From Candidatus Mycolicibacterium alkanivorans (GTDB lineage Bacteria; Actinomycetota; Actinomycetes; Mycobacteriales; Mycobacteriaceae): DNA of 64,000 nucleotides. The stretch is taken from assembly GCF_022760805.1 (NCBI RefSeq), contig NZ_JAIVFL010000001.1:186001-250000 (forward strand), written 5' to 3'. Positions 6,500 through 25,192 of the stretch are shown here, one piece after another. The stretch's first letter is position 1; each line of letters starts with the position of its first letter. The translations under genes and the position numbers were made by a program. Under the pieces are notes generated by a model. The model ran no database searches. It worked only from the letters and a program-made list of their open reading frames with translations, and was not told the DNA's origin.

Positions 6500-7273
6500 T
6501 CAGGGTTTGGCGAAGCCGGCCGCGGCCAGCACCTTCTGACCGTACTCACCGGTCACGAGGTCGACGAATTTGCCTGCCGGGTCAGGGTTTTCGGACGCCT
6601 TCAGGACCGCGATCGGGTACGTGTTGACCGCGCCCGCGGATTGCGGGAACGGCACCGCCGTGACTTTGTCACCGGCGCCGACCGCGTCGGTGACATAGAC
6701 CAGCCCGGCGTCGGCCTGGCCGGTGCTCACCTTGTTGAGCACGTCGGTGACCTGGGACTCCTCGCTCACCGGCGTCAGCTGCACCCCGGCGGCCTGTTCG
6801 ACTTTCTTGGTGGCCGAGCCGCACGGCACCTGGGGTGCGCAGACGACGACCGTCAGGCCCGGCCGGGTGAGGTCGGAGAACGTGGTGACGTTCTTCGGAT
6901 TAGCCGGGGCGACAACGATCGTCAGTGTGTTGGAGGCGAAGTTGACCGGTATCCCAGCGAGCAGACCGGACTGTGCGGCCTTGTCCATGGTCTTGGTGTC
7001 GGCGGTGGCCAACACGTCGGCGATCGCACCCTGTGTCAACTGGGTGAGCAGGTCGGAGGATCCGGCGAAGGAGAACTCGACGTCGGTGCCGGGGTTGTCG
7101 GCCTTGAACTTCTCGCCGATCTCGGTGAACGTCTTCTTCAGCGACGCTGCGGCGAAGACGGTGATCTTCGGCCCGCCGGCGTCGCTGGTCGAATCCCGCT
7201 GCGCCGAGCCACACCCGCTGACCAAGCAGAGCGCCAGCACGGCGCTCAGCGCCGTTCGCGCAGGGTGTTTCAT
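6500..7273 (-). CDS. modA: Molybdate ABC transporter substrate-binding lipoprotein, last gene of the nif operon
   Basis: 257-residue periplasmic-binding protein. A lipobox LVSGC sits at residues 18-22, then the ModA core (ITVFAAASLKKTFTEIGEKF; SFAGSSDLLTQLTQGAIADV; FASNTLTIVVAPANPKN). It binds molybdate outside the membrane and normally delivers it to ModBC; no modB or modC lies next to it here. ATG overlaps the fprA stop as ATGA, tying it to the nif operon, where molybdenum is needed for FeMo-co. It may use a permease encoded elsewhere. Confidence 0.93.
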   Translation of the reverse strand: MKHPARTALSAVLALCLVSGCGSAQRDSTSDAGGPKITVFAAASLKKTFTEIGEKFKADNPGTDVEFSFAGSSDLLTQLTQGAIADVLATADTKTMDKAAQSGLLAGIPVNFASNTLTIVVAPANPKNVTTFSDLTRPGLTVVVCAPQVPCGSATKKVEQAAGVQLTPVSEESQVTDVLNKVSTGQADAGLVYVTDAVGAGDKVTAVPFPQSAGAVNTYPIAVLKASENPDPAGKFVDLVTGEYGQKVLAAAGFAKP

Positions 7274-8652
7274 CCGGGATCCGCACTCGCGTCCAACATG
7301 GCTTCGCGCTCGACGACCTTAACCCGCTCGCGGTCCTGGCCTTCCCCGATGGCCCGTTCGCGGGCGTCCAGGCGAAGCCAGCCCTCCCATGTGGTGTACG
7401 GGCATCGGTGTGATGCGAGGAATGTGGGCATGGCTTCTGGACTCGGATCCTGCGGCGCGTCGAGTATTCCGTTGCGATAGTCCTCCAGCAGGCAGGCGAT
7501 CGTCTCTTCGGCGTCGCTCCTGGTGTGGCCGATCAGCCCGACCGGGCCGCGTTTGATCCAGCCGGTGACATACACCCCGGCCAGTCTCCTGTCGTCCTCG
7601 TCGAGGACCCGGCCGGCCTCGTTCGGAATGGTCCCGTTGTCGTCGTCGAACGGCAGCTTGGCCACCGGCTCGGACAGGTAGCCAACAGCACGGTAGACCG
7701 CTTGGACGTCCCAGTCGGTGAATCTGCCTGTGCTGCGGACATTTCCGGTTCCGTCGAGTTCGGTGCGTTCGGTGCGCAGACCGGTGACTCGTCCGTTGTC
7801 GCCGACGACTTCCACCGGATTCTCGAAGAAGTGCAGGTGTACCCGGTGCGGCCGGTTGCCCGGATCGCGCAGCGCGTACTTCTCGATGACGGCCGTGACC
7901 TGATCGACGATCATCGAGCTGCGGCGGGCCTGCACCGAGGCGTCGTCGTAGTCGATGTCTTCCGGGTCGACGACCACCTCGATGTTCGGCGAGGTGTCGA
8001 GCTCCCACAGTTCCAGTGGGGTGAACTTGGCCTGAACCGGTCCGCGGCGGCAGAACAGGTGGACTTCAGTCGCCTCGTTGACCTTCAGACCCTGGTACAC
8101 GTTCGGCGGAATCTCGGTGGGCAGCAGCTCATCTGCGGTCTTGGCCAGCATCCGCGCCACGTCCAATGCCACGTTGCCCGCGCCGATCACCGCGACCTTG
8201 CGGGCGGTCAACGGCCAGTTGCGAGGAACGTCGGGGTGGCCGTTGTACCAGGACACGAAGTCCGCCGCGCCGAACGACCCGCCGAGCTCGATCCCGGGGA
8301 TCGGCAGCGGACGATCGCTGTTGGCCCCGGTGGAGAAGACGACGGCGTCGTACATCGAACGAAGATCGTCCAAGCCGAGGTCGGTACCGTAGTCGACGTT
8401 GCCGAACAACCGCACACCGGGCTTGTCGAGCACCCGGTGCAGCGCGGTGATGATCCCCTTGATCCGCGGGTGGTCGGGGGCCACGCCGTAGCGGATCAAC
8501 CCGAACGGCGCGGGAAGTCGCTCCAACACGTCGACGGCGACGTCGACATCGGACTTCAGCAGCGCCTCGGCGGCGTAAATCCCCGCGGGGCCGGCGCCGA
8601 CGACGGCGACCCGCAATGGGCGATGCTCGCGCAACTCTGATTCCTTCCTCAT
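7270..8652 (-). CDS. fprA: FprA-type NADPH:ferredoxin reductase
   Basis: 460-residue flavoprotein of the adrenodoxin-reductase family. FAD motif VAVVGAGPAGIYAAE at residues 15-29, NADP motif VAVIGAGNVALDVARML, and the C-terminal GWIKRGPVGLIGHTRSDAEE. It transfers electrons between NADPH and ferredoxin. ATG at 8652 overlaps the ferredoxin stop as ATGA; the frame is open upstream to 8946, but that part overlaps the ferredoxin gene. Placement directly after the ferredoxin gene and within the nif operon suggests reduction of that ferredoxin for nitrogenase. Confidence 0.95.
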   Translation of the reverse strand: MRKESELREHRPLRVAVVGAGPAGIYAAEALLKSDVDVAVDVLERLPAPFGLIRYGVAPDHPRIKGIITALHRVLDKPGVRLFGNVDYGTDLGLDDLRSMYDAVVFSTGANSDRPLPIPGIELGGSFGAADFVSWYNGHPDVPRNWPLTARKVAVIGAGNVALDVARMLAKTADELLPTEIPPNVYQGLKVNEATEVHLFCRRGPVQAKFTPLELWELDTSPNIEVVVDPEDIDYDDASVQARRSSMIVDQVTAVIEKYALRDPGNRPHRVHLHFFENPVEVVGDNGRVTGLRTERTELDGTGNVRSTGRFTDWDVQAVYRAVGYLSEPVAKLPFDDDNGTIPNEAGRVLDEDDRRLAGVYVTGWIKRGPVGLIGHTRSDAEETIACLLEDYRNGILDAPQDPSPEAMPTFLASHRCPYTTWEGWLRLDARERAIGEGQDRERVKVVEREAMLDASADPG

Positions 8653-8969
8653 TCGCTGTGCCGCGGTAGGTTTTTGACGAAGTCCGGATCGGCGGCGGTC
8701 TTGCCGAGGTCGGAGGCTCCACCGGGCGAGCCGAGCTCGGCGAAGAACTCGACGTTGGCCGCCTTGAAGTCCCGCCACTTCTTCGGCACCTGGAGCTCGT
8801 AGAAGATCGCCTCCGCCGGGCAGGCCTCCACGCATGCTCCGCAGTCGGTGCACTCGTCGGGATGTATGTAGAGCATCCGCTCGCCCTCGTAGATGCAGTC
8901 CACCGGGCACTCGGGCACGCACGCCTTGTCCTTCACGTCCAAGCATGGCTCGGTTATCACATACGTCAT
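8649..8969 (-). CDS. fdxA: 7Fe ferredoxin ([3Fe-4S][4Fe-4S])
   Basis: 106-residue ferredoxin. The cysteine pattern matches Azotobacter FdI: C9, C17 and C50 for the 3Fe cluster; C21, C40, C43 and C46 for the 4Fe cluster; C25 free. The segment CPVDCIYEGERMLYIHPDEC is characteristic. A C-terminal tail of about 50 residues follows, as in other actinobacterial FdxA proteins. Lying between korB and fprA in the nif operon, it is the likely immediate electron carrier to NifH. Confidence 0.95.
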   Translation of the reverse strand: MTYVITEPCLDVKDKACVPECPVDCIYEGERMLYIHPDECTDCGACVEACPAEAIFYELQVPKKWRDFKAANVEFFAELGSPGGASDLGKTAADPDFVKNLPRHSE

Positions 8970-24038: not shown

Positions 24039-24070
24039 GTGTTTCCCTGTCTCCTTAACTTGTCGGCCGT

Positions 24071-25192
24071 TTATGCCGTTTGGAATAGATCGCGGATCTC
24101 GGCGAACCGGAGTGGTCGCTTGTGCTCCGACGTCATAGCCCGGACGCGCTCGAGTAGCGCCTCCAGTTCCTCGCCATCGGCTGCGATGCCGTGGCGTGCC
24201 AGCGCGTAACGCAGCGACGCGCGCCCGCTGTGCTTGCCGACGAGCAGTCGGCGACGGGCCCCGACCTCCGCCGGGTCGAACGGTTCGTAGGTCGCTGCGT
24301 GCTTGAGGACCCCGTCGACGTGGATGCCCGACTCGTGGGTGAACACCGATCGGCCCACGACGGCCTTGCTGGCGGGAAGGGGCCGGCGGGCGGCACGGGC
24401 CACCAATAAGGCCAGGGCGCGAAATCGGGTGCTGTCCACGCCGGTATCCACCGCGTGGAGGTGTCGAAGGCCCATCACGACCTCTTCTAGCGGGGCGTTT
24501 CCGGCCCGCTCGCCCAGGCCGGCCACGGTGGTGCTCACCCAGCTGACGCCGGCGCGCACGGCGGCCAGGCTGTTGGCCGTGGCCAACCCGAAGTCGTCGT
24601 GGGCGTGGATCTCCCAGACCCCGGGCACGGCGCGGGTCAGCTGAGTGAGGCGGCCGTAGCCGTCGAAGGGCTCCATGACCCCGACGGTGTCGGCCCACCG
24701 CAGCCGCTCGACGCCCATTCCGGTCAGGTCGGCGGCCAATTCGGCCACGAAATGATCGTCGGCTCGCGAGGCGTCTTCGAATCCCACGCTGACCCGCAAC
24801 CCGCGGTCGAGTGCGTCGGACACACAGTCCGCGATGTGGCGCGCCGCCCATTTTCGGTCGCGGCCGAGTTTCTGCTCCAAATGCAGGTCCGACACCGGAA
24901 TTGTCAAATGAACCGAACGTATTGTGCATTTTTCTGCAGCGGCCACGTCCAGCCGGTTGGCCCGGCACCAGCCGACGACATCGGCGGCCAGTCCGGCCTG
25001 CGCGATCCGTTGAAGCGCTTCACGCTCAACGGTTCCCATCGCAGGGATGCCCGCCTCGATGACGTGCACACCACAGTCGTCGAGGGCGGAGGCAATCGCG
25101 AGTTTCTCGTCCGAGGTGAAAGAGACACCGGGGCCCTGTTCGCCGTCGCGCAATGTCGTGTCACAAATACGGACACGTCGGTCGACGTCCAT
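24071..25192 (-). CDS. nifV: Homocitrate synthase NifV, first gene of the nif operon
   Basis: 373 residues. VRICDTTLRDGEQGPGVSFT is the catalytic start of the alpha-isopropylmalate/homocitrate synthase family; HAHDDFGLATANSLAAVRAG carries the metal-binding HxH-type motif; THESGIHVDGVLK and LLVGKHSGRASL are typical. It condenses acetyl-CoA with 2-oxoglutarate to homocitrate, the organic ligand of FeMo-co. ATG at 25192 is preferred because AAGGGGA precedes it by seven bases; ATG at 25231 is possible but lacks a clear site. nifV before nifH resembles Frankia clusters. Confidence 0.95.
   Translation of the reverse strand: MDVDRRVRICDTTLRDGEQGPGVSFTSDEKLAIASALDDCGVHVIEAGIPAMGTVEREALQRIAQAGLAADVVGWCRANRLDVAAAEKCTIRSVHLTIPVSDLHLEQKLGRDRKWAARHIADCVSDALDRGLRVSVGFEDASRADDHFVAELAADLTGMGVERLRWADTVGVMEPFDGYGRLTQLTRAVPGVWEIHAHDDFGLATANSLAAVRAGVSWVSTTVAGLGERAGNAPLEEVVMGLRHLHAVDTGVDSTRFRALALLVARAARRPLPASKAVVGRSVFTHESGIHVDGVLKHAATYEPFDPAEVGARRRLLVGKHSGRASLRYALARHGIAADGEELEALLERVRAMTSEHKRPLRFAEIRDLFQTA

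Follow-up and report, generated by a model that had tools for sequence, protein, structure and literature searches.

The genome of Candidatus Mycolicibacterium alkanivorans carries a genuine Frankia-type nitrogenase island, probably a working one, in the 64,000-bp stretch of DNA analysed here (the window; bases 186001-250000 of a 4,049,316-bp contig, the whole genome being 4,050,246 bp). As we read its sequence, with good though not full confidence, this is a complete Frankia-type molybdenum (Mo) nitrogenase set, likely transferred, likely nitrogen-fixing and predicted to be activated by GlnR under nitrogen starvation, with the participation of a nif-linked winged-helix-like protein. To our knowledge, mycobacteria are not generally accepted as nitrogen fixers; if the reading is true, there would be one genus more among the diazotrophs, and a Frankia-type nif cluster would be seen to have moved as a unit. 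The nif island is larger than the initial annotation had it and comes with a candidate control region. New here, and missed by that annotation, are a GlnR-type box upstream of nifV and a divergent gene, here called upV, which encodes a predicted winged-helix-like protein and has the same distribution as nifD among 396 genomes sampled from the genus (the same three carriers).

Twenty co-directed minus-strand genes, from nifV (25192-24071) through modA (7273-6500), span 6500-25192, and all 20 reading frames are open. They are listed below in the order of transcription, with bit scores to NCBIfam (TIGR, NF) or Pfam (PF) models.

24071-25192, minus strand: nifV, homocitrate synthase (TIGR02660, 504 bits, above cut-off)
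23172-24038, minus strand: nifH, nitrogenase iron protein (TIGR01287, 451 bits, above cut-off)
21724-23175, minus strand: nifD, MoFe protein alpha chain (TIGR01282, 827 bits, above cut-off)
20213-21727, minus strand: nifK, MoFe protein beta chain (TIGR01286, 841 bits, above cut-off)
18818-20209, minus strand: nifE (TIGR01283, 632 bits, above cut-off)
17451-18818, minus strand: nifN (TIGR01285, 459 bits, above cut-off)
17050-17457, minus strand: nifX (TIGR02663, 137 bits, above cut-off)
16619-17053, minus strand: orf3, NifX-associated protein (TIGR02935, 154 bits, above cut-off)
16423-16632, minus strand: orf1, Rop-like (PF05082, 79 bits; no NCBIfam match)
16076-16426, minus strand: nifW (PF03206, 108 bits; below NCBIfam cut-offs)
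15828-16079, minus strand: nifZ (PF04319, 89 bits; no NCBIfam match)
14357-15826, minus strand: nifB, radical-SAM synthase of the iron-molybdenum cofactor (FeMo-co), with a NifX-like tail (TIGR01290, 745 bits, above cut-off)
13776-14360, minus strand: fusion of an IscA-like and a NifU C-terminal domain (PF01521 and PF01106)
13039-13782, minus strand: hesA/MoeB-like adenylyltransferase (named by resemblance; below NCBIfam cut-offs)
11894-13042, minus strand: nifS-like cysteine desulfurase (TIGR03402, 334 bits, below its cut-off)
10020-11897, minus strand: korA, 2-oxoacid:acceptor oxidoreductase alpha (TIGR03710, 635 bits, above cut-off)
8984-10006, minus strand: korB, 2-oxoacid:acceptor oxidoreductase beta (TIGR02177, 245 bits, below the cut-off of 262)
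8649-8969, minus strand: fdxA, actinobacterial ferredoxin (NF045480, 166 bits, above cut-off)
7270-8652, minus strand: fprA-like FAD/NAD(P) ferredoxin reductase (named by resemblance; PF07992, 48 bits; NCBIfam below cut-off)
6500-7273, minus strand: modA, molybdate-binding protein (TIGR01256, 118 bits, above cut-off)

NCBIfam models matched 18 of the 20 genes at E <= 0.001, with scores above the curated cut-off for 13 (nifV, H, D, K, E, N and X, orf3, nifB, the IscA/NifU fusion, korA, fdxA and modA) and below it for five (nifW, hesA, nifS, korB and fprA). The other two, orf1 and nifZ, have no NCBIfam match and match the Rop-like and NifZ families of Pfam; family matches for all 20 bear out the initial annotation of a minus-strand run of genes that starts with nifV and ends with modA. 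With the best-supported starts, 14 of the 19 junctions overlap (15 with an alternative GTG start of nifB), not 16 as annotated, while the overlap size of 1-14 bp and the largest gap of 32 bp, between nifV and nifH, were confirmed; the remaining gaps are of 1, 3, 13 and 14 bp.

On family scores, the nitrogenase is of the Mo type (Nif group, not Vnf or Anf). NifD scored 827 bits to TIGR01282 against 300 to VNFD and 291 to ANFD, NifK 841 bits against 297 to vnfK and 273 to anfK, and NifH 451 bits. Both NifD and NifK align nearly end to end with chains of solved MoFe proteins, and residues C65, C91, C157, C275 and H442 of NifD, which we take to be the metal-cluster ligands (P-cluster cysteines, and the Cys and His of FeMo-co), are invariant in 13 aligned homologues. 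The minimal biosynthetic set of NifE, NifN and NifB is present, each above its cut-off. With NifH, D, K, E, N and B above their cut-offs and the NifD ligands conserved, the proposal of a complete Mo-nitrogenase set holds.

The cluster follows the Frankia-type order, nifVHDKENX-orf3-orf1-WZB and then IscA/NifU, hesA, nifS and korAB; this order and the tree described below agree with the Frankia-like core and actinobacterial affinity proposed initially. Parafrankia soli (loci L030 and L141) has the same order, nifH-D-K-E-N-X-orf3-orf1-W-Z-B-(IscA/NifU fusion)-hesA-nifS-korA-korB and then an fdxA-like gene, with upV divergent from nifH and nifV not found in the stretch covered. Pieces in the order of the window, nifV first, were detected in Frankia (L021-L025 and L142-L144), and in the pieces of Frankia tisae and of strains R82 and AgTrS this order persists as far as korB; Frankia CiP1 differs, with korAB upstream of nifV. 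The nif proteins of the window are 47-84% identical to those of Frankia and Parafrankia, and the spacing, judged by match coordinates, is tighter in the window. In the mycobacterial form fdxA, fprA and modA continue in the same operon, whereas the Parafrankia stretch 36676-76000 has the fdxA-like gene and no match to fprA or modA.

A close counterpart is the Mycobacterium metagenome-assembled genome (MAG) WOFB04 (G385; WOYS01000013.1), which has all 20 genes and upV, co-linear with the window but for one pair: nifZ stands ahead of nifW, the reverse of their order in the window and in Frankia (L018:15926-17184). Protein identity to the window is 70-91% for 14 of the 20 and 48-67% for the other six. 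Another compact Gram-positive cluster that has hesA and nifV belongs to Paenibacillus, whose NifHDKEN proteins fall outside the actinobacterial group in the five-protein tree. The GlnR proteins of Bacillota and of actinobacteria are unrelated families. In the available parts of the respective papers, the Paenibacillus cluster is given as nifBHDKENX(orf1)hesAnifV (PMC6429469) and its nitrogen control is assigned to a protein named GlnR (PMC6191146).

By comparison among these loci, the conserved block extends past 25192 and takes in the divergent 151-amino-acid gene upV together with the 338 bp that separate it from nifV, with the following features.

25299-25316, minus strand: GlnR-type box GTTAAC-N6-GTTACC, with 106 bp between it and the nifV ATG (consensus as in the available parts of PMC3662644 and PMC3087709)
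25355-25372, minus strand: T-rich direct repeat TTTTTC-N6-TTTTTC, a candidate operator, in a conserved stretch upstream of the GlnR-type box
25531-25986, plus strand: upV, 151-amino-acid nif-linked protein, divergent from nifV, with a predicted winged-helix-like N-terminal domain and C-terminal helices with invariant C142-x2-C145

The interval between upV and nifV holds GTTAACTTCTGCGTTACC; within the window nothing else matches GTTAAC-N6-GTTAC, for which 0.13 matches are expected at one mismatch or fewer. The exact motif was detected in 9 of 157 loci, of which three are overlapping segments of the window region itself and six are nif loci of Frankia/Parafrankia, where it stands about 165-180 bp ahead of the match to nifV or nifH; no non-actinobacterial locus among the 157 has it, and the loci of WOFB04 and of the MAG G294 carry variants in its place. 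In the 4.05-Mb genome, exact TTAAC-N6-GTTACC occurs once, at the nifV box, and the one exact match in WOFB04 lies away from nif; at one mismatch or fewer no enrichment over a reversed control was detected in any of the three genomes. A degenerate GlnR-type box was found in 10 of the 12 actinobacterial nif loci examined, the window included, and is missing in L019 and L026.

The box fits the M. smegmatis GlnR pattern AC/T-n9-AC given in the available part of PMC3662644 (in the window TTAACTTCTGCGTTAC, 25300-25315, minus strand), as does the AT-n9-AC form seen in G294; this degenerate pattern has nine matches in the 64 kb on both strands. The stricter S. venezuelae form GTnAC-n6-GTnAC (available part of PMC3087709) is not matched exactly, the first half in the window being TTAAC and the second GTTAC. 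In the part of PMC3662644 available, nif genes are not mentioned within the M. smegmatis GlnR regulon, and the window box is a putative GlnR site. A sigma-70 scan of 24900-26100 gave no promoter. From the position and conservation of the box we infer that the nif operon may be under GlnR control at low nitrogen. According to the accessible text of PMC5745019, Frankia is without nifA, nifL and rpoN, and a homologue-based strategy did not identify its nif regulators; if our reading is true, the GlnR box and upV would be two concrete candidates for actinobacterial nif control. With the 344 bp that precede the nif cluster of F. alni, a reporter was expressed in a nitrogen-responsive manner (PMC6769113, in the part available); a method of transforming F. 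alni is described there too. Separately, five Frankia/Parafrankia loci (L021, L022, L024, L025 and L030) carry a second GlnR-type box (e.g. TTAAC-n6-GAAAC) on the opposite strand near upV, and the three mycobacteria do not.

The T-rich stretch begins 62-86 bp 5' of the box in 8 of 8 regions. Motif runs on these regions, four of which are near copies from Frankia and hence not independent, returned the box half GTTAAC as the best 14-bp motif and the T-rich stretch as the best 20-bp motif. In a control with five of the eight regions and 18-bp motifs the best score was 22.1 (21.35 in two other runs), against a mean of 18.1 and a maximum of 19.7 in 60 simulated sets; the site chosen in G294 differed between runs.

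The upV protein is 87% identical in WOFB04, 88% in G294 and 66-67% in the same five Frankia/Parafrankia loci, where it lies beside nifV or nifH, divergent and upstream each time, with the GlnR-type box upstream as in the window. Its family comprises 43 proteins, its own included, at E <= 0.001 among 5.8 billion; the organism-named matches come from Mycobacterium, Frankia, Parafrankia and a Pseudonocardiaceae MAG. Against Pfam and NCBIfam upV gave nothing at E <= 10, and its best match by sequence to solved structures had E 0.59; neither sequence nor fold search led to an identity. Residues 16-104 are predicted (predicted local distance difference test score 88) to form helix-strand-helix-helix-strand-strand, the order of the winged helix, plus one further helix. 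In the structure search the fold matches were weak, with winged-helix chains among unrelated folds, and a DNA-binding role of upV is therefore predicted only. The C-terminal part is helical in the prediction, and C142 and C145 are invariant in a 38-row alignment.

Among named actinobacterial nif genomes upV was detected in 4 of 8. It was not found in a Dactylosporangium MAG, a Micrococcales MAG, Frankia CiP1 and Ca. Frankia nodulisporulans, for which incomplete assemblies could also be the reason. The latter two are restricted to symbiosis, and the lack of a upV match in them gives a hint that upV may matter outside symbiosis. Both of these genomes (G757 and G759) retain nif and the GlnR-type box.

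A mechanism can be proposed in which, at low nitrogen, GlnR would bind the box that lies 106 bp ahead of nifV and give rise to one long transcript. NifB, NifEN, NifX and NifV would then assemble FeMo-co, with iron-sulfur units supplied by NifS and the IscA-NifU fusion. KorAB would oxidise 2-oxoglutarate and reduce FdxA, FprA would link ferredoxin with NADPH, and ferredoxin would pass electrons to NifH, while ModA would capture molybdate for the ModB permease encoded elsewhere. The upV protein would bind the T-rich stretch, which lies between the upV gene and the GlnR box, and would gate the promoter, its invariant CxxC perhaps being a redox, oxygen or metal sensor.

An operon of the soluble methane monooxygenase (sMMO) type with mmoX, Y, B, C and Z is located in the same genome near 3.316-3.322 Mb (L148:10070-15869, corresponding to 3316069-3321868 of the contig). 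MmoX scored 617 bits to the solved alpha chain of the methane monooxygenase hydroxylase and matches PF02332, mmoY, mmoC and mmoZ have NCBIfam matches below curated cut-offs, and mmoB matches PF02406. Eleven of the 381 genomes sampled from the genus have the sMMO gamma-subunit family, including the source genome and G294 and not WOFB04; its presence in two of the three nif genomes has a chance of 0.002 under random draw, assuming WOFB04 to be among the 381 and ignoring kinship. The nearest named MmoX is that of Mycobacterium sp. ENV421 (79%), and identity to Mycolicibacterium MmoX is 60%; these values did not settle methane as the substrate. Genes for an ExaC-type aldehyde dehydrogenase and Mad-family proteins are situated near this operon. 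The available part of a paper on methanotrophic Mycobacterium (PMC12366331) has no mention of nif.

Putting these elements together, we tentatively picture a mycobacterium that would oxidise methane or another short alkane by the sMMO-type enzyme and fix nitrogen via the transferred nif island, under GlnR and a new class of nif regulator, the CxxC winged-helix upV. This protein, which several Frankia also have but some that are bound to symbiosis lack, would stand in for the NifA that nitrogen-fixing actinobacteria are missing. This combined picture is possible rather than probable.

It is also conceivable, and we give this a comparable, limited credence, that upV is a nitrogenase accessory protein, for instance a redox or metallocluster-handling factor acting via its CxxC, and that GlnR alone controls nif. 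The small nif-linked proteins NifW and NifZ are nitrogenase accessory proteins, and the invariant cysteines and the weak fold matches of upV would suit such a function. However, upV is a divergent single gene facing nifV from outside the operon, its predicted domain has the element order of the winged helix, and the T-rich stretch is conserved between upV and nifV, all of which speak for a regulator.

Another explanation is that the nif set is cryptic, its genes intact and nitrogen fixation prevented by oxygen, missing partners or silence. Mycobacteria are aerobic, and we know of no vesicle-like structure in them. Among the 20 operon genes no nifQ, nif flavodoxin or NifU N-terminal domain was found, and a ModB permease above its cut-off is encoded elsewhere in the genome (2561351-2561959); the self-sufficiency proposed in the initial annotation is, on gene content, likely only. 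But 20 of 20 open frames, the conserved NifD ligands and the retention of all 20 genes in WOFB04, at the degree of protein divergence given above, make a cryptic set unlikely, and we regard the nif island as likely enabling nitrogen fixation.

As to the origin of the island, only 3 of the 396 genomes sampled from the genus have nifD (the source genome, WOFB04 and G294, a 74% complete MAG whose nif set is seen in part only) and, in an order-wide sample, only 1 of 397, again the window's own genome. The three surroundings differ. The nif set of the window lies between genes for a small membrane protein and a prolyl oligopeptidase, and that of G294 adjoins suf genes (SufBD, ABC ATPase, class V aminotransferase and NifU_N; L136:8103-13087). 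In WOFB04 the set is at another chromosomal site than the window's, flanked by a transposase gene on one side and ThiS-like and ars genes on the other, with the prolyl oligopeptidase on a different contig. Three carriers at three different sites make horizontal transfer likely. A DDE transposase gene stands about 2.9 kb from upV in WOFB04 (L014:1777-3327).

In a NifHDKEN tree of 20 rows, some with partial genes, the three mycobacterial sets are united in a single clade (98/98) inside the 12 actinobacterial rows, which are grouped at 100/100 against eight others. The mycobacteria, Frankia CiP1 and six other Frankia/Parafrankia rows make a group of ten (82/82) without resolved inner order, and the tree gives no direction of transfer. 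A NifD-only tree points against a single mycobacterial clade: there the window groups with P0002 and G294 (99), and WOFB04 with P0009 (99) in a separate fork. It was made by a quick method from 72 rows out of 120 listed of 6486 matches, with 24 of 69 inner branches open and an outgroup that is not one side of a branch. We prefer the five-gene tree, the NifD result still counting against one common mycobacterial clade. Among the matches listed, NifD is 76-83% identical to proteins named Frankia, Parafrankia or Protofrankia, and 86% and 94% (partial) to two of Mycobacterium sp.; the scan of named genomes for nif loci covered the best 80 of 581 loci and is not a census.

That nif is old in mycobacteria and was lost by nearly all species, rather than transferred in, would agree with the single clade and a tree that gives no direction. 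Its presence in so few genomes, in three different surroundings, makes this quite improbable. Gain of the Frankia-type island by transfer and its subsequent spread among mycobacteria is, on sequence comparison, the likely course, the direction and donor being our suggestion.

The two backbone genes at the borders of the nif block are the following.

5686-6039, minus strand: left backbone small membrane protein (PF16936), presumably Rv0460-like; five relatives align up to window 6019-6020
25987-28164, plus strand: right backbone prolyl oligopeptidase (PF00326, PF02897), presumably Rv0457c-like; found in 387 of the 396 sampled genomes of the genus

By Pfam, the left backbone has an acyl-ACP thioesterase, a ScfR-type regulator, dihydrolipoamide dehydrogenase and two small proteins, and the right backbone the prolyl oligopeptidase, PPK2 and a chaperonin; the dihydrolipoamide dehydrogenase, small membrane protein and prolyl oligopeptidase fit the mycobacterial backbone that the initial annotation saw on both sides. 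Synteny was compared with the five relatives that have the best-scoring prolyl oligopeptidase (G295, G098, G241, G009 and G284; 84-88% identical). In these nifD-free genomes the left alignment stops at window 6019-6020 and the right one resumes at 26141-26146, and the site holds 5.7-8.3 kb without a match to the window; one such interval (L131), typed by Pfam, encodes aldehyde and alcohol dehydrogenases, a GAF protein, a flavin oxidoreductase and a GGDEF protein. The nif block therefore stands in place of other genes, and the acquisition looks, from the alignments, like a replacement of 5.7-8.3 kb. Acquisition as a block thus stands, with the prolyl oligopeptidase nearly universal and nifD rare, but a clean insertion with target-site duplications was rejected: the relatives have other genes at the site, and a repeat search in two 2.3-kb regions around the joins, each searched separately with repeats shared between left and right outside its scope, gave nothing notable. 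In a prolyl oligopeptidase tree the G294 (72%) and WOFB04 (73%) proteins are far from that of the window; the other rows were picked for similarity to the window, and the tree therefore shows only this distance. The source genome, at 4.05 Mb, is smaller than those of the five relatives (5.1-6.1 Mb).

An assembly chimera or contamination by Frankia-like DNA, which the initial annotation had named as a refutation, is very improbable and was rejected: the joins are known from the assembly alone, but the block lies in a single 4.05-Mb contig of a genome with 99.19% completeness and 1.11% contamination, its GC content at third codon positions is 0.856 against 0.868 in nine backbone genes, its NifD is, among the matches listed, closer to the two Mycobacterium sp. 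proteins than to Frankia-type names, and related nif sets are present in two further mycobacterial assemblies.

NCBI already has proteins of 'Mycobacterium sp.' MAGs named nitrogenase. A literature search, with most subscription journals outside its coverage, gave no paper on mycobacterial or non-Frankia actinobacterial nif among the matches listed, and the available parts of PMC9938248 and PMC4531530 contain nothing on mycobacterial nif or on Frankia nif control.

Elsewhere in the window, a 96-base tRNA-Arg(ccg) called by ARAGORN at 31212-31307, without Rfam support, is probably false. Beside the left join, an open frame at 5943-6488, for which Pfam gave no match, contains a small plus-strand frame (6170-6488) with a signal-peptide-like start, convergent with modA.

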